From contig NZ_BMXA01000010.1 of the NCBI RefSeq assembly GCF_014651515.1, positions 1 to 64,000 on the forward strand: a DNA stretch of 64,000 bases, given 5' to 3'. The position numbers and the translations under genes were made by a program. The stretch comes from Arenicella chitinivorans. GTDB lineage: Bacteria > Pseudomonadota > Gammaproteobacteria > Arenicellales > Arenicellaceae. Position 1 is the stretch's first letter. Each line of letters starts with the position of its first letter. Below are positions 1-8,287 of this stretch, in pieces. The notes under the pieces were generated by a model. That model had not been told where the DNA came from. It saw only the letters and a list, made by a program, of their open reading frames with translations, and ran no database searches.

Positions 1-550
1 GTACTTGGCGAATCAATTTGTCGAGCTGCTTATCGAGTGTTTGAATCTCTTTCTGAACGGCTTTCAGTACACGACGTATTGGCGCGTGTGTCGGTTTTGG
101 CATGCGAGATAAGCGATTCTTTTGCTGTGTTCTGATGGTTAGTAGTTGTGTTCTCAGTGTGATTAAGTCACTGATTTGTTGTAGTTTTTCGGATTTCAAC
201 TGCGTTAAAGCAGGTTTAACCGCTTCGCCATAATGAGCGATGATGAAAGCATCGAGCTTGTCGGTCTTGGCAAGTTGCCCGGTGGCTTTAGCAAAGCTGT
301 GAACGTGCCATGCATTGCAGATAACGATGGGTAACCCAGCATTAAACGCGGCACAGGCGAAGGGCAGTTCGAGTCGCCCTGTCGCCTCAATCAGGATACG
401 ATCGGGCTGAACGAGCGCAAGGCGTTCGATGGCGATTTTGATGCCATGCGGGTTGTTATCGACTGAGAAAAAGTCGCCAGTAGGTCGGATGGCGATGTCC
501 AATCGATCTTTGGAAGTGTCGATGCCGACATTGATTTCAGTTTGGTTCAT
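1..550 (-). CDS. IS110-family transposase, N-terminal part (cut by window edge)
   Basis: The reverse strand is open without a stop from an ATG at 550 to the window edge, giving 183 residues. The RuvC-like DEDD domain of IS110 transposases is visible: Asp11 in GIDTSKDRLDIA, Glu55 in LIEATGRLELP, and Asp97 and Asp100 in FAKATGQLAKTDKLDA. The second half, which in this family holds the serine-containing C-terminal domain, lies outside the window, so intactness cannot be judged. IS110 elements transpose by site-specific recombination. The IS1111-attC subgroup is known to target integron attC sites, which fits the cassette-like DNA beginning about 150 bp upstream of this gene. Subgroup assignment is not possible from this half. 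The family call is secure. Confidence 0.9.
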   Translation of the reverse strand, partial: MNQTEINVGIDTSKDRLDIAIRPTGDFFSVDNNPHGIKIAIERLALVQPDRILIEATGRLELPFACAAFNAGLPIVICNAWHVHSFAKATGQLAKTDKLDAFIIAHYGEAVKPALTQLKSEKLQQISDLITLRTQLLTIRTQQKNRLSRMPKPTHAPIRRVLKAVQKEIQTLDKQLDKLIRQV

Positions 551-705
551 GCTAAGCTACCTCTTGCTTGTTATACGGGCTTGAGTGCTGCGCACCGCGA
601 CGCCACCAGGGCCACATCCCAAAAGACTATTCGAAGTTAAACTTGAGAGATTGCTAGCGCTCCTTCTTGTTATCGGTTTTTAAAACCCGTCGCAAATCGA
701 GCTAC
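551..705. mobile_element. Probable non-coding end of the IS110-family element
   Basis: This stretch between the transposase start and the first attC-like palindrome has no credible ORF. In the IS110 group the non-coding end upstream of the transposase holds the element terminus and encodes the guide (bridge) RNA. In the IS1111 group that RNA lies downstream instead. The exact terminus cannot be placed without a second copy. The assignment rests on position only. Confidence 0.4.
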
Positions 706-727
706 TAACAATGGCCTTCGGCCGTTA
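706..727. repeat. Short palindrome, possible attC remnant
   Basis: TAAC at 706-709 and GTTA at 724-727 flank the inner stem GGCC-TTC-GGCC, so the outer arms correspond to the AAC/GTT ends of an integron attC simple site. At 22 bp it is much shorter than a functional attC (about 57-141 bp). It could be the footprint left where the IS inserted into a cassette boundary. Confidence 0.35.
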
Positions 728-794
728 CCGAAGGTGGGTCTCAATTTACCCGTAAGACGAACATGGAGAAAGGATATTTATGTGTCGGAATCAA

Positions 795-880
795 CCCTAC
801 AAGTTTGCAAAATTTGCTACGTTCGTTTCACTCTTTGCGCGGGACGCGTTTTCAACGCGCCCATTGCAAAGGCGTTAATT
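795..880 (+). repeat. attC-like cassette recombination site
   Basis: A long imperfect hairpin runs from CTTTGC at 833 to GCAAAG at 871, with the perfect inner stem ACGCGTT-TTC-AACGCG (844-859). It is followed by GGCGTTAATT at 871-880 in the place of the R' site (consensus GTTRRRY). The opposite arm probably starts near CCTACAAG at 795. The core GGGACGCGTTTT...GCGCC recurs near 3270-3290 and 4425-4445. Conserved folding with poor sequence conservation is typical of attC sites. The R'' arm is degenerate. Confidence 0.5.
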
Positions 881-895
881 ACACAGGAGGTATCA

Positions 896-1237
896 ATGAA
901 AATCGCATCTTTAATTCTTATTGTTTTATTACTTTGTGGCTGTGCAACGAGTTCTGGCGTTCTCAATCTTGGGCCAGACACATTTTCCGTCTCAATGCAT
1001 GCTGCACCTGCGAGGGGCGGTACGGTCGGCGCTAAGAAGCTTGCTCTTCAAGAAGCAAATAATCATTGCAAAACCATTAGCAAGTATATTTTGGTAACCA
1101 ACATAAATACTTACCCTTCATCACATTTGCCGGGTGGTACTGCAGATATTACTTTTCGCTGTCTCGCAGAGGGCGATCCAGATTTAAAGCGTCCAACTTA
1201 TGAAAAACCAGCCGATATTAAATTTGAAACAAACTAA
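896..1237 (+). CDS. Small lipoprotein in a cassette-like unit
   Basis: The ATG at 896 is chosen because AGGAGG lies at 885-890 just upstream. The reading frame is open further upstream to 734, but that part crosses the attC-like hairpin and lacks a ribosome site. The 113-residue product begins MKIASLILIVLLLCGC, a lipoprotein signal with the lipobox LLCGC, so it is probably anchored in the inner or outer membrane. The mature part carries the pattern PARGGTVGAKKLALQEANNHC, then ILVTN and PGGTADITFRCL. This resembles a family of small proteobacterial lipoproteins of unknown role often seen in accessory DNA. It sits alone between two attC-like repeats, as a single-gene cassette would. No function can be assigned. 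Confidence 0.8.
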   Translation: MKIASLILIVLLLCGCATSSGVLNLGPDTFSVSMHAAPARGGTVGAKKLALQEANNHCKTISKYILVTNINTYPSSHLPGGTADITFRCLAEGDPDLKRPTYEKPADIKFETN

Positions 1238-1250
1238 ATGAATAAGGTAA

Positions 1251-1330
1251 TTAACAAGTTCAAAAACGAAACTGTCAGCGATGCTGGCGGCGACGCCGCT
1301 TAAACGCGGCGCCTGTTTTAAAGGCGTTAC
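1251..1330 (+). repeat. attC-like cassette recombination site
   Basis: The site starts with TTAACAAG at 1251-1258, close to the R'' consensus RYYYAAC, and ends with GGCGTTAC at 1323-1330, close to GTTRRRY. Between them is the strong stem GACGCCGC-TTAAAC-GCGGCG, the usual central hairpin of proteobacterial attC sites. The 80-bp length is within the normal range. It lies directly downstream of the lipoprotein stop and upstream of the next same-strand ORF, the position expected for the attC of the lipoprotein cassette. Confidence 0.6.
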
Positions 1331-1341
1331 ATGTATCCGCA

Positions 1342-1662
1342 ATGAGGGTTCCTACCATTTCATATTATCGCGTACTGTTTGTTGGCTTGATGCTTATGCA
1401 TCTAGCATTATTTATTTGGTTCGCTCTTTCAGAAAGTCTTCAGCCGATGCCTATGCTTGGAAGTATCATAAATTTCGTAGGTGCTATTGGCGTACTATTC
1501 GTTTTCATGACTATTTACGAAATTTTCCTAGAAGACGGAGCGTTTTTTGGTTTAGTTAGCTTTTTCGCAATACCTATACCTATTGTCGGATCAGTGCTTC
1601 TTTTTAAATTCTTAATTAAAATGATTAGAAAGGAGAGTCGTGAAAAGCGTAAAAGCATTTAA
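1342..1662 (+). CDS. Small membrane protein of unknown function
   Basis: This 106-residue ORF starts with ATG at 1342, only 12 bp after the end of the preceding attC-like site, as is usual in gene cassettes that lack long leaders. Three hydrophobic stretches are visible at roughly residues 10-28, 42-62 and 70-93. A strongly basic tail (KMIRKESREKRKS) follows and would face the cytoplasm. There is no clear Shine-Dalgarno sequence, and expression may depend on readthrough from upstream. I recognise no family. It could be a genuine cassette-encoded inner-membrane protein. The hydrophobic pattern and basic end argue against a chance ORF. Confidence 0.6.
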   Translation: MRVPTISYYRVLFVGLMLMHLALFIWFALSESLQPMPMLGSIINFVGAIGVLFVFMTIYEIFLEDGAFFGLVSFFAIPIPIVGSVLLFKFLIKMIRKESREKRKSI

Positions 1663-1752
1663 CAAAGCTCAAAACAATACGAACAACAGTACTATGAGAT
1701 GCGCGCCTAATCTGGTGTCTACTTCTCGTGGGTAGGACCAGCCACTAGACAA
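1658..1752 (+). repeat. Possible degenerate attC-like site
   Basis: TTTAACAAAG at 1658-1667 overlaps the end of the membrane protein gene and resembles an R'' arm. A stem CTGGT-CTAC...GTAG-ACCAG lies at 1712-1741. No good R' arm is visible, so this is a weak call based on its position between two cassette-like genes. Confidence 0.35.
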
Positions 1753-1764
1753 CGAATTGAGCCA

Positions 1765-2382
1765 ATGGAAACAGAAAAAAGTACAGCTCGCAAGAGAGCA
1801 GATGAAATAAAGGATTATCGCTGTAAAAATCTTATAGCTGTAATCGAAGAGCCGAATGACATTCGCAATATTGGAACAGTTATTCGTAATGTGAATGCTC
1901 TCGGTGTAGAGAAAACCTATATAGTAGATAGTCGCAAGGCACTACCTGATGGCTGGGAAGAGATGAGAGAAAGAAAGTCTCTCACAAAGCCCTCGGTGTC
2001 CGCTATAAAATGGAGCTTCGTAAAGCGATTCGATAGCACTGAAGACTGCCTTGATCATTTGCAGAAGAACAGGTTCGCTTCAGTGGTTACATCGCCACAC
2101 GTAAAAGGCAAAGACAATCGAATTTTGCATGAAACTGATTACACAACTTACACCAAGCTTGCAGTTTGGTTCGGTAACGAATCCAGAGGAATTAGTGATA
2201 TTGCCGTAGATCGTAGTGAGTTCTGTGTATCAATTCCAATGTTTGGAATGATTGAAAGCCTAAATCTTGGCACTACGAGTGGTATTGTCCTCTATGAAAT
2301 CACTAAGCAGAGGCGTGCTTATCAAATGAAGTACAAACGTGCCAATCGTGGGCCTAACAAATCAAGCAGCGCCGGTTCTTGA
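1765..2382 (+). CDS. SpoU/TrmH-family RNA 2'-O-methyltransferase in a cassette
   Basis: The 205-residue protein carries the SpoU (SPOUT knot) signatures: EEPNDIRNIGTVIRNVNALG at about residues 28-47 (motif 1), WFGNESRG at about 137-144 (motif 2) and SIPMFGMIESLNLGTTSGI near residues 159-178 (motif 3). Such enzymes methylate ribose 2'-OH groups in tRNA or rRNA using S-adenosylmethionine through a trefoil-knot dimer. The N-terminus lacks the extra substrate-binding domain found in RlmB-type members, so the target RNA is unknown. The gene lies alone between attC-like sites and its last codons are part of one, so the gene is probably cassette-borne. A separate chromosomal rlmB is present at 47208-47966. 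Confidence 0.85.
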   Translation: METEKSTARKRADEIKDYRCKNLIAVIEEPNDIRNIGTVIRNVNALGVEKTYIVDSRKALPDGWEEMRERKSLTKPSVSAIKWSFVKRFDSTEDCLDHLQKNRFASVVTSPHVKGKDNRILHETDYTTYTKLAVWFGNESRGISDIAVDRSEFCVSIPMFGMIESLNLGTTSGIVLYEITKQRRAYQMKYKRANRGPNKSSSAGS

Positions 2383-2392
2383 GGCGTTAGGT
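2352..2392 (+). repeat. attC site with perfect simple-site consensus
   Basis: GCCTAAC at 2352-2358 matches RYYYAAC and GTTAGGT at 2386-2392 matches GTTRRRY, and the two are inverted relative to each other. The inner part (ATCAAG...CTTGAG) is also complementary. At 41 bp it is shorter than usual, so the central arm may be deleted. The stop codon of the TrmH gene (2380-2382) lies inside it, a common cassette configuration. Confidence 0.6.
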
Positions 2393-2405
2393 TGCGGGCC
2401 TGCGC

Positions 2406-2757
2406 ATGGTCAGTGACTACACGCTTGCTCATGAGCTTTACTGTTTCATGGTTTCGGTGCCTGAACTATGGACTTGGACGCAGCTTCAAGGATTGAAAGA
2501 GTCGGGGGGAGACACATAAGGAGTACCGAGGTCCAGATTCCGAGTTAATCTTCAGTCTGAGCGTTCTAGATTCAGGAACTGAGAACGGAAAAGAGTACTT
2601 ACAAGTTTTTGTGAATGTGAGCGAAGTAAATCGCGGCATGTCTCATGGAAGTAGCTATAAGCCACTAGGCACATGCTACATACATATTAAAAATGGCGAG
2701 TTGGATATGCCCACAGCTAAGGATATATTCAATGATCTCCAAAAATACGCCACCTAA
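2406..2757 (+). pseudogene. Frameshifted cassette gene of unknown function
   Basis: An ATG at 2406, 13 bp after the preceding attC, opens a frame that stops at 2517-2519 after 37 residues (begins MVSDYTLAHELY). The +1 frame is open from 2506 and continues as a protein-like sequence (HKEYRGPDSELIFSLS... to IFNDLQKYAT) until TAA at 2755-2757. The switch lies at a run of six G at 2504-2509. Removing one G joins the frames into one product of about 116 residues. The stop codon overlaps the next attC-like R'' arm (ACCTAAC), as in intact cassettes. The gene may be a real pseudogene, a sequencing error in a homopolymer, or a slippage-expressed gene. The family is unknown. Confidence 0.55.
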
Positions 2758-2832
2758 CAAGCGGACAATCTGGTTGGTGCTCTATTTTGTGTATGGCTTC
2801 GCCATGTTACATAAAGCGCTACACCAACCAAA
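2752..2832 (+). repeat. attC-like nested hairpin
   Basis: ACCTAAC at 2752-2758 fits R'' (RYYYAAC). TGGTTGGTG at 2771-2779 pairs exactly with CACCAACCA at 2822-2830. An inner stem ATGGC-TTC-GCCAT sits at 2793-2805, extended by TGT/ACA. The 80-bp nested fold is like larger attC sites, but no clean GTTRRRY arm is present, so it is probably inactive. Confidence 0.5.
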
Positions 2833-3243
2833 ATGCAGCTACACTCTGCTTTAATTTTACAAATGCTTGAGCCCGATTACTCAAAGTATTCATATTCAGA
2901 GTTGCTTGATGTTTTAGAGCATATAGATCGAGAGACACACCCTGATAGGTACGAAAATGCCAGAATAAATTTGGAAGGGGCTGAACCTACAGAGGCAAAA
3001 CCTAATGAACGAAAACGCTCAAAACGGTTTGCAAATAGGATTGCTGGAACTTTCTTGGCTATCTATTCAGTTTATATTGCCGCTATGATTATTTTTACTG
3101 GATACCCAGGTTATCGAAGCTATCTGCATGAATGGTCGTATTTCTTTATAGAGTCCAGTCAATTGCGTCAGACAGTTTCTTTCTGCGTGCTTATTATTGG
3201 CTTCATGCTTACTTACAAATTATGGAAAAAGAAAGATGACTAA
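2833..3243 (+). CDS. Small membrane protein with N-terminal YSELLDVLEHIDRE-type motif
   Basis: The 136-residue ORF begins at ATG 2833, directly after the attC-like hairpin. A second ATG at 2863 (MLEPDYSKY) may be the true start, because the recognisable part begins there. Residues about 14-45 contain SELLDVLEHIDRETHPDRYE, a short helical motif found at the N-terminus of many uncharacterised membrane proteins. A basic linker (NERKRSKRFANR) precedes two hydrophobic segments at about residues 70-90 and 112-130, and the protein ends KLWKKKDD. The topology is therefore N-in with two membrane spans. The function is unknown. It is a single gene between attC-like repeats on the same strand as its neighbours. 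Confidence 0.65.
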   Translation: MQLHSALILQMLEPDYSKYSYSELLDVLEHIDRETHPDRYENARINLEGAEPTEAKPNERKRSKRFANRIAGTFLAIYSVYIAAMIIFTGYPGYRSYLHEWSYFFIESSQLRQTVSFCVLIIGFMLTYKLWKKKDD

Positions 3244-3312
3244 TAAATCTCAAAACAAGCGTCTTCGGCTCGGATGCGTTTTTAATGCGCCCCTTGCAAA
3301 GACGCTGGCCCT
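3238..3312 (+). repeat. Degenerate attC-like site
   Basis: AGCGTCTT at 3258-3265 pairs with AAGACGCT at 3299-3306, enclosing the stem ATGCGTT-TTT-AATGCGC that is almost the same as the cores at 840-860 and 4427-4445. The outer arms (ACTAATA on the left, GACGCTGG on the right) have lost the AAC and GTT triplets, so recombination competence is doubtful. Confidence 0.45.
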
Positions 3313-3336
3313 CAAGAATTAAGGAGAAACAATCAA

Positions 3337-4197
3337 ATGCAGAATATTACGAACATTGGCGTACCGCCCTGGACTCGTTCTGAAATTATTTCCCATCTCG
3401 ATGAATTTGAAGCAATCTATGCAGAGCGTCCTATCAAAGATAATCAAGGAGGTATGAAAGCCCCGCATATGTTTGCTGTTTGGTTCATGGCAAAACAATT
3501 ATCCCCGGATATCATCGTTGAAAGCGGTATATGGAAAGGGCAGAGCACCTGGCTGCTAGAGACAGCATGCCCTGACGCCAAGTTGTTTTCAATTGACTTA
3601 AATCTAGGCTATCGGCAATATATTTCCGACCGTGCTATATATTTAGATAAGGATTTTGCTGAACAGGATTGGTCTGGAATAAGTGATCGTTCGCTCGTAT
3701 TCTTCGATGATCACCAAAACGCCTACAAACGACTACAGCAGTGTAATTGGTTTGGGTTTAAACATATTATATTCGAAGACAACTACCCAGTGACACAAGG
3801 CGATTGTTATAGTCTTAAAAAGGCATTTTCTAATGCGGGTTTTGAACATGTTTACTCTGCATCAAGAACCCTTGGCAATAGTATCGTTGCTAAAGCAGCA
3901 AGACGAGTTGTTGCTCGGCTAGCTGGACTTAATCCAATTGCGCTAACCCCTCAGTATGAAACCGAAAAAATTCCTCCGAACGATGTGGATTCGAGGATGC
4001 TGAAAAAGAATCTTGATGTTTACTACGAATTCCCCCCAGTTTTCAGGACCAGCAAGACCCGCTGGGGCGACGAGTGGGATGATATGACATACCCGACCCC
4101 AAAGCCGTTAATCGAGCAGTCGGGCGAACTATCTCATAAGCTATTTTTAGATGAGGCAGTATTTTATACCTGGATATGTTACGCAAAACTGAAGTAA
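3337..4197 (+). CDS. Class I methyltransferase-like (cephalosporin hydroxylase/TylF-like fold) protein
   Basis: The 286-residue protein starts at ATG 3337 with AAGGAG at 3321-3326. Residues 59-90 read as a Rossmann motif I: a strand (DIIVES), the loop GIWKGQST, and LFSIDL carrying the acidic residue that would bind the cofactor ribose. The later segment SLVFFDDHQNAYKRL (about 125-139) and HIIFEDN (about 148-154) resemble the metal-binding acidic region of TylF/cephalosporin-hydroxylase-like methyltransferases. The substrate is unknown. The last part, from about residue 215, is not recognisable. It is the last large + strand gene of the cassette-like region. The low-G+C codon use is like its neighbours and unlike the housekeeping genes further right. 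Confidence 0.6.
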   Translation: MQNITNIGVPPWTRSEIISHLDEFEAIYAERPIKDNQGGMKAPHMFAVWFMAKQLSPDIIVESGIWKGQSTWLLETACPDAKLFSIDLNLGYRQYISDRAIYLDKDFAEQDWSGISDRSLVFFDDHQNAYKRLQQCNWFGFKHIIFEDNYPVTQGDCYSLKKAFSNAGFEHVYSASRTLGNSIVAKAARRVVARLAGLNPIALTPQYETEKIPPNDVDSRMLKKNLDVYYEFPPVFRTSKTRWGDEWDDMTYPTPKPLIEQSGELSHKLFLDEAVFYTWICYAKLK

Positions 4198-4202
4198 CGA
4201 GT

Positions 4203-4314
4203 GGCTAACAAGGCGCTACACCGGACGGTAATTACGCTGCCCTCGATTGTCGCGGGTGAGATTGGGTGTTATGACTTGTGCGAGCACTATTAGGATTTGT
4301 CTTAGAGATTTATC
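4203..4314. other. Gap after last large cassette gene, possible attC arm
   Basis: GGCTAACAAGGCGC at 4203-4216 resembles the left arm of an attC, but no matching right arm is found within 100 bp. I see no gene in this short stretch. Confidence 0.25.
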
Positions 4315-4452
4315 ATGTTCAAAAAACAACAAACAGAACATGCCAATATAAATACTAAGCACCTTGTCCGCTCGAATGAGCTTGAATCATACAAACACTT
4401 TAAATATCCCTCCCGTGGTCGGGCGGGACGCGTTTTTAATGCGCCTCGGTAA
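4315..4452 (+). CDS. Possible 45-residue ORF running into an attC-like hairpin
   Basis: ATG at 4315 opens a 45-residue frame (begins MFKKQQTEHANINTKHL) that stops at 4450-4452 inside the downstream hairpin. Its last residues (GRAGRVFNAPR) are encoded by the attC-like core, and the same GRVFNAP reading occurs in the frame through the hairpin near 840-860. It may be a truncated cassette gene or a chance ORF. There is no clear ribosome site. Confidence 0.25.
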   Translation: MFKKQQTEHANINTKHLVRSNELESYKHFKYPSRGRAGRVFNAPR

Positions 4453-4462
4453 GTGGGCGTCA
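4420..4462 (+). repeat. attC-like core hairpin, last copy of the array
   Basis: The core GGGACGCGTT-TTT-AATGCGCC at 4425-4445 repeats those near 842 and 3272, followed by GTGGGCGTCAT. It lies just before the convergent gene at 4536 and marks the last cassette-type repeat I can see. Confidence 0.4.
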
Positions 4463-4535
4463 TCTGTGTTGGCAGTACTATGAGAGTCTGTCAGGCGGTA
4501 TGTATCCATATATGCCCATTAAAACGTTTAACCTG

Positions 4536-7500
4536 CTAGAAATCGGCGGGTGAAGAGAGGAATTGTTGAAACTGTCTGTAAAGCACTGTGACGGGATAAA
4601 CGGATAGCGCGAAATTGTTGTCCTTGCTCATTTCCTTAATATGGTTGTCAGGATCAATTTCCACGAATACAGGGATATATCCCATGGTTTCTAGGGCTGA
4701 TGAAATTTCATTTGTGTACTCCAAATCGATGCTTAGATCTTGGGAATCTCTCGGGTGCAGGATATCTATTTGCTTATCACCTACTATAGTTAATTTTTCC
4801 TTGTTATTGACATCAAAAGTAGATGTTAATATTTTTTCTTCACTATAGTAGAATCTTACTGTCACATTTTTAGCACGTTTCAACGACCAGTTGCGGACAG
4901 TGGAGGTAATCCGCAGCTTTCTGTCTTCTTCTATTAATTCTGTTTTTATATCAAGCGACAATAGCTTGAGTGAACTTTTTTTAAGGCCAAGATACGGTAT
5001 AACCATCCCTAAGTCAGGGTGCTCGTAATACTGCTGCCAATAAGTAGGGAGTACTTTGTTAACAGGGACCCTCACTGCATAGCTAAGACGAATCATATTA
5101 GCTTGGTCGATGTAAAAGTATGGATGGATCTTGAAATCTTTGATGTCCTGATCAGGTGGGGGTAACCTAGGCAAGTTAAGTTCCAGACTAAACGTATTTT
5201 CAATGGTATAACTCGATAACTCCAACTGATGATAAGATTCTTCTAAATTTGACTCAATTTCTGTAGACAGACTGACAATTGCTGGAAACTCTACACCGAT
5301 TGAAACTGATCCAGACACCGTTGTTGTCGCAGAAATTGATGTGCTATTCGTCTCATTATTCAAATCCTTGAATTCGATTTTGTAGGTACGATGCATATTC
5401 GGATTAACACTAATCTCTTTTCCCCATAGAAGTCGCTGAATATCCTCAGGTTCTCTAGGCGGGTAAGATAAAAGGTTTCCGGCCTGATGCGAGGCTCTTC
5501 TAAATAAATTACGTCCTAGCTCTGAAAGCTTCATAGGTTGAGATGATGGCCTAACAAATAAAAAACGCCCGGATGGCTCGTCTCCGATAAAAACAGGGTA
5601 TTCGTATACTTCGTAGTTGATCCCCACGTACAACACCACGTCCTGCTTATCAACCTCAATGATTTCACTTTGAATAACTTCTTTTGTGCTCGTGTATGCG
5701 TTTTCGGTTGATTTGTCAAACCTGCTAGAAACTACTGCGTTGATCTTAGTGCCGAAAATATCGCCAATAGAGTTGAAGGAAGTTTCCAACTTTTTCGATT
5801 TTGACTGGCTTGTTTTGAACACGATATTCCTCTTTTCCTGTTTAGAACTTTGAGACGTGAAGGTGAGTGTCGGAATTTCGCCATCTGCGTAGTCAATCAA
5901 TGAGGAAAATGGGATTGCGTCCAGTACCGCCAAGGGCTGTAGCCTATGCGTGATTGTATAGTTCCTTGGGTCTCTTGTACTAATTTCTTTATTTGAAAAT
6001 GCTACTGCCGAGGGCCATATCTGAAAATCTTTGGAATCTCTCTTGTACCCCTTATCAACAATTTCAAATTGTCTATCATCTTTGTTTAGCTTAAAAATAC
6101 GCTTGGTGACTTTGACATTGCTTATCCCTGCGGATGATGGTGATAGTTTAGAGCAATCTTGAACTATATATAGCTGTTCTCCTATATGAGTCCCTCTTGA
6201 ATAATTCCAGAAATCACCTTCGTCCGATTCGAAAGCACGCCGCATTTCTTCATCTCTATTCAAAGTTCCATTGCTTTTCTGGGAAAATATCTCTAAGCAC
6301 TGGTGTTGATTTTCTGAATATAAAAAATAAATAACATTACCGATATTATGAAGCATTGTAGTTTGGGTCATCCAAACCCAATCCTGCAAATTTGCAATTG
6401 CTACAGGATACTTTTTATCCCATATTTGGATATATTCTAATCCGGTCCATTTGTACCCCACTAAATTGTTGCTATGAAATTTGTGCAGATTCAAATACAC
6501 AAATCCATTTAAGCAGATAACGCTTGGGTTGAGTGAGCCAAGAAATCTTACATTTTCGTATGACTGGACTGAAATCAGGCATTGAACTTTGTTTAACCTG
6601 ATTTGCTTGGAGGGGATGTTAATAGTCAGCCGAATTATACTAGTAACAAGCTTCCCATCATTTGTAAAACCGCTTAACACAATCACCAAAATGATCGCAT
6701 CTTTCGTTTGATTTTGTTCCGTAGAAATGTCTAAACCGCAAATGGAATCTTGTGCTATCCCCATATTGTGTTTAGTGACTGGTAGTTTTCCCCATACACT
6801 TTTCCCCCCTTTGGAAAAGGAGTAAATATCTACTTTAAACTGAGTTTCATCTACCGATACTGTTATGATCTGCTCTTTCCTCGGTACCCCTAGGACATCA
6901 CAGGCGGCTGATTTAGTGTAATAGTTGGTGTGTTCTTTGTATAATTCCTGGTATCTGGAAAGCGAATTAAGATCTACTTGTGCCAAAGTGATCTCTGTAT
7001 TTTTTTGAGAGAGCATTTGCAGCCCATTGGATTCTGTATCAAAACTTCCAATAAGAGCGTCAACTTTTGAAAGGTTCGCCACCTCCCGAGTACTCGAATT
7101 CCTTTCTTCGGCGAATTCTTCAGGAGTTATTCTTGAATCAACAATCAGCGCAGCCGATGTTGAGATAGACGTTCTACTAAATTCGCCAGTCGTTTCGGTA
7201 ATCGATCGGATATAGCCCATCGGGAGCGTGAATTTCCAGCTATCACTGGACGTCTCATCCATTGGCCTACCAGATTGAACAGATTGATGTTTTTCCCGTT
7301 GTGAGGGAGGTTCTTTAAACTCTAGTTGATCTGAAATAGGTGATTCTGATTCTTTAAGAGACATTGTTTCTGCCCAGCTAGCGAATTGTAAGATTTCCGC
7401 TTGCCAGTTTGGCCTCTCCTTGAATGCATGATGCACTTGTCGATCTAGTTCGTGATCACCAGCCTCCAGTTTTTTCAGTGAAAGACCGGAGATGTCGTTG

Positions 7501-7580
7501 TCGTATCTTTGCACAAAGGAATAAGCTAGCTGGCTCTTGTGCGCCAGCTCCTGCATTATTGATTGGAGGCTTTTTTTCAT
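4536..7580 (-). CDS. Large protein of unknown function with beta-rich centre and CARDB-like C-terminus
   Basis: The product has 1014 residues and starts at ATG 7580. No signal peptide or membrane span is visible, so it is probably cytosolic or released by another route. Residues about 200-640 are beta-rich with repeated hydrophobic/aromatic strands, compatible with a beta-propeller. Residues about 735-800 alternate Ser/Thr with hydrophobic residues (NSTSISATTTVSGSVSIG), the amphipathic pattern of aerolysin/ETX-MTX2 insertion hairpins. Residues about 885-990 resemble a CARDB/Ig-like domain (VTVRFYYSEEK and VFVEIDPDNHIKEMSKDNN). These are visual impressions, not homology results. The gene is A+T-rich, convergent with the cassette array, and preceded 3 bp upstream by a truncated ORF. 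No function is assigned. Confidence 0.65.
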   Translation of the reverse strand: MKKSLQSIMQELAHKSQLAYSFVQRYDNDISGLSLKKLEAGDHELDRQVHHAFKERPNWQAEILQFASWAETMSLKESESPISDQLEFKEPPSQREKHQSVQSGRPMDETSSDSWKFTLPMGYIRSITETTGEFSRTSISTSAALIVDSRITPEEFAEERNSSTREVANLSKVDALIGSFDTESNGLQMLSQKNTEITLAQVDLNSLSRYQELYKEHTNYYTKSAACDVLGVPRKEQIITVSVDETQFKVDIYSFSKGGKSVWGKLPVTKHNMGIAQDSICGLDISTEQNQTKDAIILVIVLSGFTNDGKLVTSIIRLTINIPSKQIRLNKVQCLISVQSYENVRFLGSLNPSVICLNGFVYLNLHKFHSNNLVGYKWTGLEYIQIWDKKYPVAIANLQDWVWMTQTTMLHNIGNVIYFLYSENQHQCLEIFSQKSNGTLNRDEEMRRAFESDEGDFWNYSRGTHIGEQLYIVQDCSKLSPSSAGISNVKVTKRIFKLNKDDRQFEIVDKGYKRDSKDFQIWPSAVAFSNKEISTRDPRNYTITHRLQPLAVLDAIPFSSLIDYADGEIPTLTFTSQSSKQEKRNIVFKTSQSKSKKLETSFNSIGDIFGTKINAVVSSRFDKSTENAYTSTKEVIQSEIIEVDKQDVVLYVGINYEVYEYPVFIGDEPSGRFLFVRPSSQPMKLSELGRNLFRRASHQAGNLLSYPPREPEDIQRLLWGKEISVNPNMHRTYKIEFKDLNNETNSTSISATTTVSGSVSIGVEFPAIVSLSTEIESNLEESYHQLELSSYTIENTFSLELNLPRLPPPDQDIKDFKIHPYFYIDQANMIRLSYAVRVPVNKVLPTYWQQYYEHPDLGMVIPYLGLKKSSLKLLSLDIKTELIEEDRKLRITSTVRNWSLKRAKNVTVRFYYSEEKILTSTFDVNNKEKLTIVGDKQIDILHPRDSQDLSIDLEYTNEISSALETMGYIPVFVEIDPDNHIKEMSKDNNFALSVYPVTVLYRQFQQFLSSPADF

Positions 7581-7583
7581 GAT

Positions 7584-7760
7584 TTATTTTTGAGAGTCAA
7601 ATAAGTTGGGTGTACGCTCTTTTGTTTTCATGCTTATGTTAATTTTTGACGCTTCTTCGTAAATTTTGATTTTTAATAAATCGTAAAAGTCAGCCTGTCC
7701 CAAATGATCGGCGTGATTGTCTCTTAGCCGTTCCAATTCACGGTAACTTTTACTATCGGT
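7584..7760 (-). pseudogene. Beheaded ORF directly upstream of the 1014-residue gene
   Basis: On the minus strand a protein-like frame of 58 codons (SYRELERLRDNHADHLGQ... NLFDSQK) ends at TAA 7584-7586, 3 bp before the ATG of the large gene. It is closed upstream by TGA at 7761-7763. Its only ATG is 15 codons from the end. A TTG start at 7736 is possible but has no ribosome site. The tight spacing suggests it was once the preceding gene of an operon and lost its 5' end by deletion or rearrangement near 7761. Confidence 0.45.
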
Positions 7761-8287
7761 TCATGACAAGTACGAGTGCAGTTGTTTTAGAGATATGTGG
7801 GCCATATGGTGAGGCTCTGAAAATATATGGTGACGAACCACCCCGACTCGGATCTATGGAATATGGATTGAGAGTTTCCAAAGCATACCGAATTCGTTCG
7901 CCCGTCATGTGCGTACACATCCGACATTGCAATCAGTAACACGAATACCATCAGCAGCCTCCTATTCTTCTCATTAGAACGAACGCCAGATGTTAAGTGT
8001 AGCCAAAGGATGCTATGTGAGAAAAGCGACGTTAGTCTAGTTTTTATGTGGCCAAAGGTGTATCTAATCTATGATCTTGAGGTGAGTGGCGGCGTTCCTA
8101 ACCCAATATACGTAGGTTATTTAATTATCTATCGCGCATGATTTCAGCAGCAGGTGCGAGCGATATACGGTGGGTCATACGAAGTAATTTCACTTTCCCG
8201 ACTCCAAACTGATACTTCAGCGTATCTCGCTAGTATTAAGTCGAAAAATACCCTGCCTACAACAACGCTGAATTCAATTCAGCACCG
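7761..8287. other. Non-coding or decayed stretch with only small ORFs
   Basis: A 58-residue frame (7763-7939, + strand, starts MTSTSAVVLEI) and an unstarted + strand frame from about 7870 to 8142 (ends PIYVGYLIIYRA) are open, but neither has a ribosome site or a family resemblance. The stretch may be remnants of accessory genes. I see no RNA gene or clear terminator here. Confidence 0.4.

Follow-up and report, generated by a model that had tools for sequence, protein, structure and literature searches.

A decayed cassette array without an adjoining integrase in Arenicella chitinivorans, and an IS110-group element inserted in its first attC site

The window analyzed here comprises the first 64,000 of the 83,529 bases of contig C10 of Arenicella chitinivorans, whose 4.03-Mb genome (G000) is assembled in 17 contigs with a listed completeness of 99.6%. 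At positions 795-4466 of the window, short open reading frames (ORFs) on the plus strand alternate with attC-like repeats, as a preliminary description of this DNA had noted, giving about six cassettes and eight attC sites or remnants in a single orientation. This stretch is very probably a decayed integron cassette array without an adjoining integrase gene (intI), that is, a CALIN (cluster of attC sites lacking integron integrase). The attC identity of the repeats, their common orientation and their degraded boxes were observed directly, as were an insertion sequence (IS) of the IS110 group inside the leftmost attC, the absence of the array from relatives, and a single intact intI elsewhere in the assembly with none above the detection cut-off nearby.

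Identity and content of the array

The repeats were scored with R1, a covariance model of attC trained on 16 sites from the same genome, none of them in the window and five lying beside the integron integrase. Fourteen of the 17 genome matches to an attC text pattern entered the training set together with two sites read by eye, and the three pattern matches without an attC core were dropped. Because the text pattern was only weakly enriched (17 matches versus 11 for the reversed pattern), the weight of the argument rests on R1 and on the neighborhood of intI. The structure of the training set had a covariation score of 0.293, a value reached by none of 500 shuffles (mean 0.123); two-sided change was seen at 11 pairs compared to 7.5 in shuffles (6 of 500 as high).

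When the 64 kb were scanned on both strands with filters off at E ≤ 10, 14 R1 matches were listed. Six of these fell inside the array, all on the plus strand; three had E ≤ 1e-6 and a fourth had E = 0.0088, placing four sites with E < 0.01 within 3.7 kb. The eight matches elsewhere lay on both strands and reached at most 10.7 bits. As a control, R1 was applied with default filters at E ≤ 0.1 to 248,403 bases of relatives' DNA in 16 loci. Its 15 matches all fell in the one array-bearing locus, L092, and there was none in the 228,403 bases of the remaining 15 loci. A strict scan of window positions 1-8000 for RYYYAAC and GTTRRRY boxes at least 30 nt apart gave no plus-strand match. Rfam, searched in both gathering and E-value modes, had no match to the array; to our knowledge Rfam holds no attC family, and this null result therefore says nothing against attC.

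The array opens with site 0 (795-881; this and all following array features are on the plus strand), which scored 35.9 bits with R1 (E 4.4e-8) and whose R'' box is split by the IS. Bases 799-877 of this site are 96% identical to an uninterrupted attC at C13:4640-4718. Cassette gene 1 (896-1237), a small ORF with a lipoprotein-like start as judged by eye and without a Pfam or NCBIfam match, is followed by site 1 (1249-1333), which had the top R1 score of the array (40.2 bits, E 2.3e-9). Gene 2 (1342-1662) encodes 106 residues with a membrane-bound look by eye and no Pfam match. The site 2 remnant (1656-1766), read by eye, retains the left box ATTTAAC and GCTCAA/TTGAGC arms and has lost its right box. 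Gene 3 (1765-2382) encodes a SpoU-family RNA methyltransferase (PF00588, 92.2 bits), and its end is overlapped by site 3 (2352-2393; 31.4 bits, E 1e-6). Site 3 is 42 nt long, the usual attC size being 57 nt and up, and it has no central stem, though both strict R boxes are present.

Gene 4 (2407-2757) is broken by one in-frame stop, and its open part (2611-2757) has no Pfam match. Site 4 (2752-2858) is of the long type, with the left box ACCTAAC kept and the right box lost; it was assigned as attC by eye and because bases 2760-2853 are 75% identical to an R1-detected attC on C5 and 81% identical to one place in the relative G005. Since this site extends to about 2857, beyond the end at 2832 that it had been given earlier, we placed the start of gene 5 (2863-3243; membrane-bound look by eye, no Pfam match) at a later ATG rather than at the 2833 of the ORF list. 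Site 5 (3238-3311; 10.4 bits, E 2) retains its core, which belongs to repeat family D1, and both of its R boxes are degraded. Gene 6 (3337-4197) encodes 286 residues of no recognized family, without a Pfam or NCBIfam match. The weak site 6 (4201-4276; R1 match at 4203-4263, 9.0 bits, E 5.1) keeps a left TAACAAG at 4206. No convincing gene was found in the last stretch, 4276-4387, and the array closes with the terminal remnant, site 7 (4387-4466; 18.2 bits, E 0.0088), in which the core is kept and the R boxes are degraded.

Other details of the preliminary description needed amendment. It had assigned RYYYAAC or GTTRRRY ends to three repeats, whereas 2352-2393 is the sole site of the array with both strict boxes; the boxes of site 1 read AATTAAC and GTTACAT, and at 2752 the left box alone is exact. 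The core that it described as shared near 842 and 3272 is indeed shared, with corrected letters: it reads GACGCGTT..AACGCGCC at 842 and GATGCGTT..AATGCGCC at 3272.

The cassettes were not encountered in relatives. Array DNA (690-4500) had matches in 12 of the 17 other genomes of the genus, all of them attC-sized or in the IS end, and none of the 17 gave a match in a cassette gene. At E ≤ 1e-10, gene 3 was found in one of 18 genus genomes and gene 6 in one of 369 genomes of the class, in both cases that of A. chitinivorans itself; genes 1, 2, 4, and 5 were compared at the DNA level only. A 1014-residue flanking gene was likewise confined to this one of the 18 genus genomes and gave no synteny. 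The right flank is conserved in the genus (sucA, sucB, and lpd, often with PMM and CLC where the contig allows), and the DNA left of CLC varies between relatives. An empty site was not shown, as the contig of the closest relative, G006, ends inside the CLC gene and the DNA to the left of CLC is variable across the genus. With at least four attC matches in one orientation, degraded boxes, and cassettes unseen in relatives, the earlier proposal of a decayed integron cassette array stands. The combination that it had named as contrary, an absence of attC matches together with a gene order fixed in distant genomes, was not found.

The integrase, decay, and alternative histories

The sole gene in the assembly above the TIGR02249 cut-off lies at C10:80011-80949, about 76 kb to the right of the array on the same contig. 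It is on the minus strand and intact, scoring 396 bits against a cut-off of 265. Five attC sites lie behind it and run away from the window up to the end of C10, forming its own array, and its other neighbor is an error-prone DNA polymerase gene (940 bits, cut-off 939, part on L013). The preliminary description had expected intI to the left, and had suggested a check for at least three attC matches in one orientation with an intI upstream. The matches were obtained, using R1 rather than IntegronFinder, and the upstream intI was not. Because intI lies to the right with an array of its own, a CALIN fits better than a chromosomal integron with intI on the left.

At least two close attC sites, the default by which IntegronFinder 2 calls a CALIN (PMC9024848), were found with our home-built model, and no integrase adjoins the array on the DNA that can be read. 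Nor does any intI adjoin it as in a complete integron, the left side being cut by the contig edge: base 1 of the window is base 1 of C10 and lies inside the IS, and the DNA further left is beyond the contig. C10 is very probably chromosomal, because it carries the only copy of sucA as well as leuC and leuD.

The intI gene and the error-prone DNA polymerase gene adjoin in 8 of 17 intI loci examined, our own included; one of these is a contig of an uncultured Arenicella, the nearest named match at 64% identity. The adjacency was not found in the other nine loci, several of which are short contigs. Across the genus, a gene above the TIGR02249 cut-off was present in 13 of 18 genomes, and at least one attC with E ≤ 0.01 in 16 of 18. 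Two genes above the cut-off occur in each of G005 (contigs C4 and C6) and G017 (C154 and C27), and several relatives carry broken ones.

Most R boxes of the array are damaged: both are gone in sites 5 and 7, and the right box is gone in sites 2 and 4. The bottom strand of site 3 folds into an R/L hairpin, and the minimum-energy fold of the site 1 bottom strand lacks the complete hairpin. The three strongest window sites had a median R1 score of 35.9, compared to 47.4 for 14 non-training sites on C11 and C13 (one-sided p 0.016; p 0.0003 with the weaker window sites added). We suppose that an IntI recombinase, working on attC strands in folded form, once joined the cassettes, and that separation of the block from its integrase may have led to the decay of most R boxes and the damage to one gene. 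Sites 1 and 3 are the best preserved and might remain substrates, in trans, of the intact IntI encoded 76 kb away.

Several observations weigh against the array being a decayed CALIN. The R1 scores of sites 5 and 6 are at chance level, and these sites are supported by position and shared core rather than by score; sites 2 and 4 were assigned by eye, with no R1 report there. Shuffled sequences fold as well as the bottom strands of sites 1, 2, and 6; of two attC sites taken for reference from the array at intI, one likewise had a modest z-score (-1.09). The comparison of scores with C11 and C13 is based on a small sample, and since other attC groups in the genome (for example on C1, C3, C6, and C8) score equally low, decay is not special to this block. 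Finally, the contig starts inside the IS, and an intI could lie just left of it on a piece missing from the assembly; contigs C15 to C17 read as N.

A different history for the same array is conceivable, though we consider it doubtful: a second integron platform may have lost its intI in place here, as opposed to a cassette block having moved from the platform at the polymerase gene. The paired and broken integrase genes of relatives favor a second platform, as does the finding that Xanthomonas has CALINs at fixed positions remote from its platform (PMC12444791). However, we found no intI remnant on the left part of C10, on C4, or on C5, and neither C4 nor C5 has a gene above the cut-off. A second platform without its integrase would still be a CALIN; it would change the history of the array and leave its identity as it is.

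It is unlikely that the array represents the distal part of the complete integron headed at 80-83.5 kb of C10, split by assembly breaks at repeated cassettes or IS copies. The two arrays do run in the same direction and both lie at contig edges, and draft assemblies are reported to inflate CALIN counts (PMC9024848). Moreover, a near-identical cassette terminates both C10 (83.4-83.5 kb) and C11 (26.4-26.5 kb), from which it follows that the arrays of this genome hold a duplicated cassette and that the assembly broke inside arrays. Nevertheless, a head on the right and a tail on the left would require C10 to be circular, and C10 holds the only sucA copy together with leuC and leuD; in the relative G005, one 366-kb contig carries both sucA and intI, separated by 67 kb. 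As for ordinary small genes with terminator hairpins or REP-like repeats, the weakness of several sites and the unspecific text pattern would suit them, but three sites with E ≤ 1e-6, no comparable score elsewhere in the 64 kb, and the 96% identity between site 0 and an attC of a different array make this highly improbable.

We thus retain the CALIN as the best description of the array. In the genome-wide R1 listing, for which 150 of 1563 first-look candidates were scored and in which the weakest entries are possibly chance, 65 candidates with E ≤ 1 sorted into 15 groups. Low-scoring groups inside large contigs and far from intI are found at C1:112268-122965, C3:170043-172116, C4:165956-173341, C8:163400-165805, and C2:14723 of G000.

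The IS110-group element at the left edge

The 5' part of an IS110 transposase gene (first 183 codons; 1-550, minus strand) is cut by the contig edge. Its residues 1-183 are 98% identical to the full copy at C5:220497-221435, which matches the NCBIfam model NF033542 for IS110 transposases of the DEDD family with 193 bits (cut-off 140). The 253-nt noncoding region upstream of the gene, the left end of the element (551-803, minus strand), ends in the attC R'' box. The element does not simply lie beyond the array; it is inserted within the first attC. Such an insertion in the R'' box should stop recombination at that site, and would separate the window block from any cassettes further left.

The element belongs to the IS110 group and not to IS1111, because a long noncoding region lies upstream of the transposase gene and a short end downstream, in keeping with the published distinction by which a long left end upstream of the transposase and a short right end mark the IS110 group (PMC11208160, PMC11187229). 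The downstream end is about 24 nt in the copies on C5, C4, and the left of C5, and the long downstream noncoding region of the IS1111-attC elements was thus not found. Sub-terminal inverted repeats of 7-17 bp, another mark of those elements, were not obvious by eye, no systematic search having been made.

Every end of this IS found in the genome lies in an attC R'' box. The copies on C8 and C11 match the window up to 805 and 803, respectively, and then diverge into other attC sites. At all six right ends (on C10, C5, C6, C8, C11, and, in a diverged copy, C1) the element passes into an R1-reported attC of 23.3-35.9 bits, and at all three left ends (right of C5, right of C4, left of C5) TAACAAG precedes the IS. 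In relatives, one right end (G010) and two left ends (G011 and G017) have the same appearance.

Because the IS sits inside the first attC, the array probably continues beyond it. Among the contig ends interrupted by the IS, the right of C4 and the left of C5 have cassettes pointing outward, and the left of C10, the left of C11, and the right of C6 lie inside the same IS with cassettes pointing inward. C4 or C5 could be joined through the IS into the window, which would be the simplest join. The right ends of C8, C13, and C14 share one sequence, GGTAAGGCCTGAGTTTCCTAGACACTTTCC..., and the left of C4 and the right of C5 share another repeat; these are probably a different insertion sequence that broke the assembly.

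Wider relatives of the IS were sought in 14 plasmid records, examined among 25 listed of the 2161 with a relative of the transposase. In all 10 elements from Vibrio, Photobacterium, Salinivibrio, and Pseudoalteromonas (46-50% identity), TTGTTA stands at the right tip and RTAACAA upstream; neither was found in any of four outgroup elements from Deinococcus, Rhizobium, Martelella, and Gloeocapsopsis (42-45% identity). The exact attC right-box motif was present on the other side of six of the 10 elements, and also of one of the four outgroups, and consequently a complete attC was not shown for the remaining four of the 10.

We predict that the IS carries an IS110-group bridge RNA aimed at attC. 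The putative bridge or seek RNA region (548-752, minus strand) has a covarying fold in 12 elements and holds a guide-like ATAACAAG at 666-673. The consensus fold has 40 pairs, with 98.5% of cells paired; 28 cells had two-sided change compared to a shuffle mean of 6.9, and 10 pairs compared to 5.2. By the measure of further pair types the alignment did not stand above its shuffles (420 of 500), and it was this same alignment that had yielded the fold. An internal loop holds ATAACAA(G/A). In each of the 11 elements compared, the final base of this motif is the same as the base at the junction: G in five, A in six. AATAGTC(T/G) matches the right tip in nine of 11 elements; one differs and one is without the pattern. 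In the noncoding region of the window ATAACAA occurs twice; of 5000 shuffles of that region, 57 contained it once or more. On the strength of these correspondences, ATAACAA(G/A) and AATAGTC(T/G) may be regarded as candidate marks of the target and donor guides of a predicted RNA. No left target guide was found. We had considered ATTGTTAG in the noncoding region as a second guide, and dropped it because the alignment shows it to be a stem strand.

Taken together, we think it likely that a marine gammaproteobacterial clade of the IS110 group, apart from the IS1111-attC elements, uses a bridge RNA guide (ATAACAAG or ATAACAAA) that would read the attC R'' box. Its members would insert in arrays, disable the attC that is hit, and help to freeze arrays and break them into stranded blocks.

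Comparison with known systems

The array alone is an ordinary CALIN, a common kind of array (PMC9024848, PMC12444791), and the main interest is in the IS. It agrees with the CALIN as defined for IntegronFinder (PMC9024848) and lies in a genome that also holds a complete integron; it differs in that the left end is cut by an IS in attC and by the contig edge, and that one site measures just 42 nt. Among sedentary chromosomal integrons, the ilvD platform of Xanthomonas with its separate CALINs (PMC12444791) is likewise an old platform beside one chromosomal gene, here that of the error-prone DNA polymerase, accompanied by remote attC groups, whereas the block in the window has no intI, and probably no attI, beside it. 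With a decaying block and an intact-integrase platform on one contig, and many attC groups for one intI, the loss of upkeep could be studied here with an internal control.

In the literature searched, which did not extend to ISfinder or the founding papers on IS1111-attC elements, we found no attC-targeting element of the IS110 group, and one may already have been reported elsewhere. In Shewanella, a survey of integrons recorded IS110-family elements, none of them interrupting an attC (PMC9229058). The attC-seeking ISKpn4, ISPst6, and ISPa25 (PMC11187229) and ISPa21 (PMC11616780) belong to the IS1111 group. Like the window IS, they insert at one attC end and have a transposase of the RNA-guided DEDD family; the window IS differs in its long upstream noncoding region and its downstream end of about 24 nt. 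If our prediction is true, a second route has brought RNA-guided insertion sequences to the sites at which integrons join their cassettes, and the G/A switch that occurs naturally in both guide and junction allows a direct test of the pairing rule. A parallel in layout is IS621, an IS110-group element with a bridge RNA (PMC11208160), which shares a noncoding left end with internal loops, guide-like segments for target and donor, and a short right end; here, the guide-like loop of the predicted RNA matches instead the attC R'' box.

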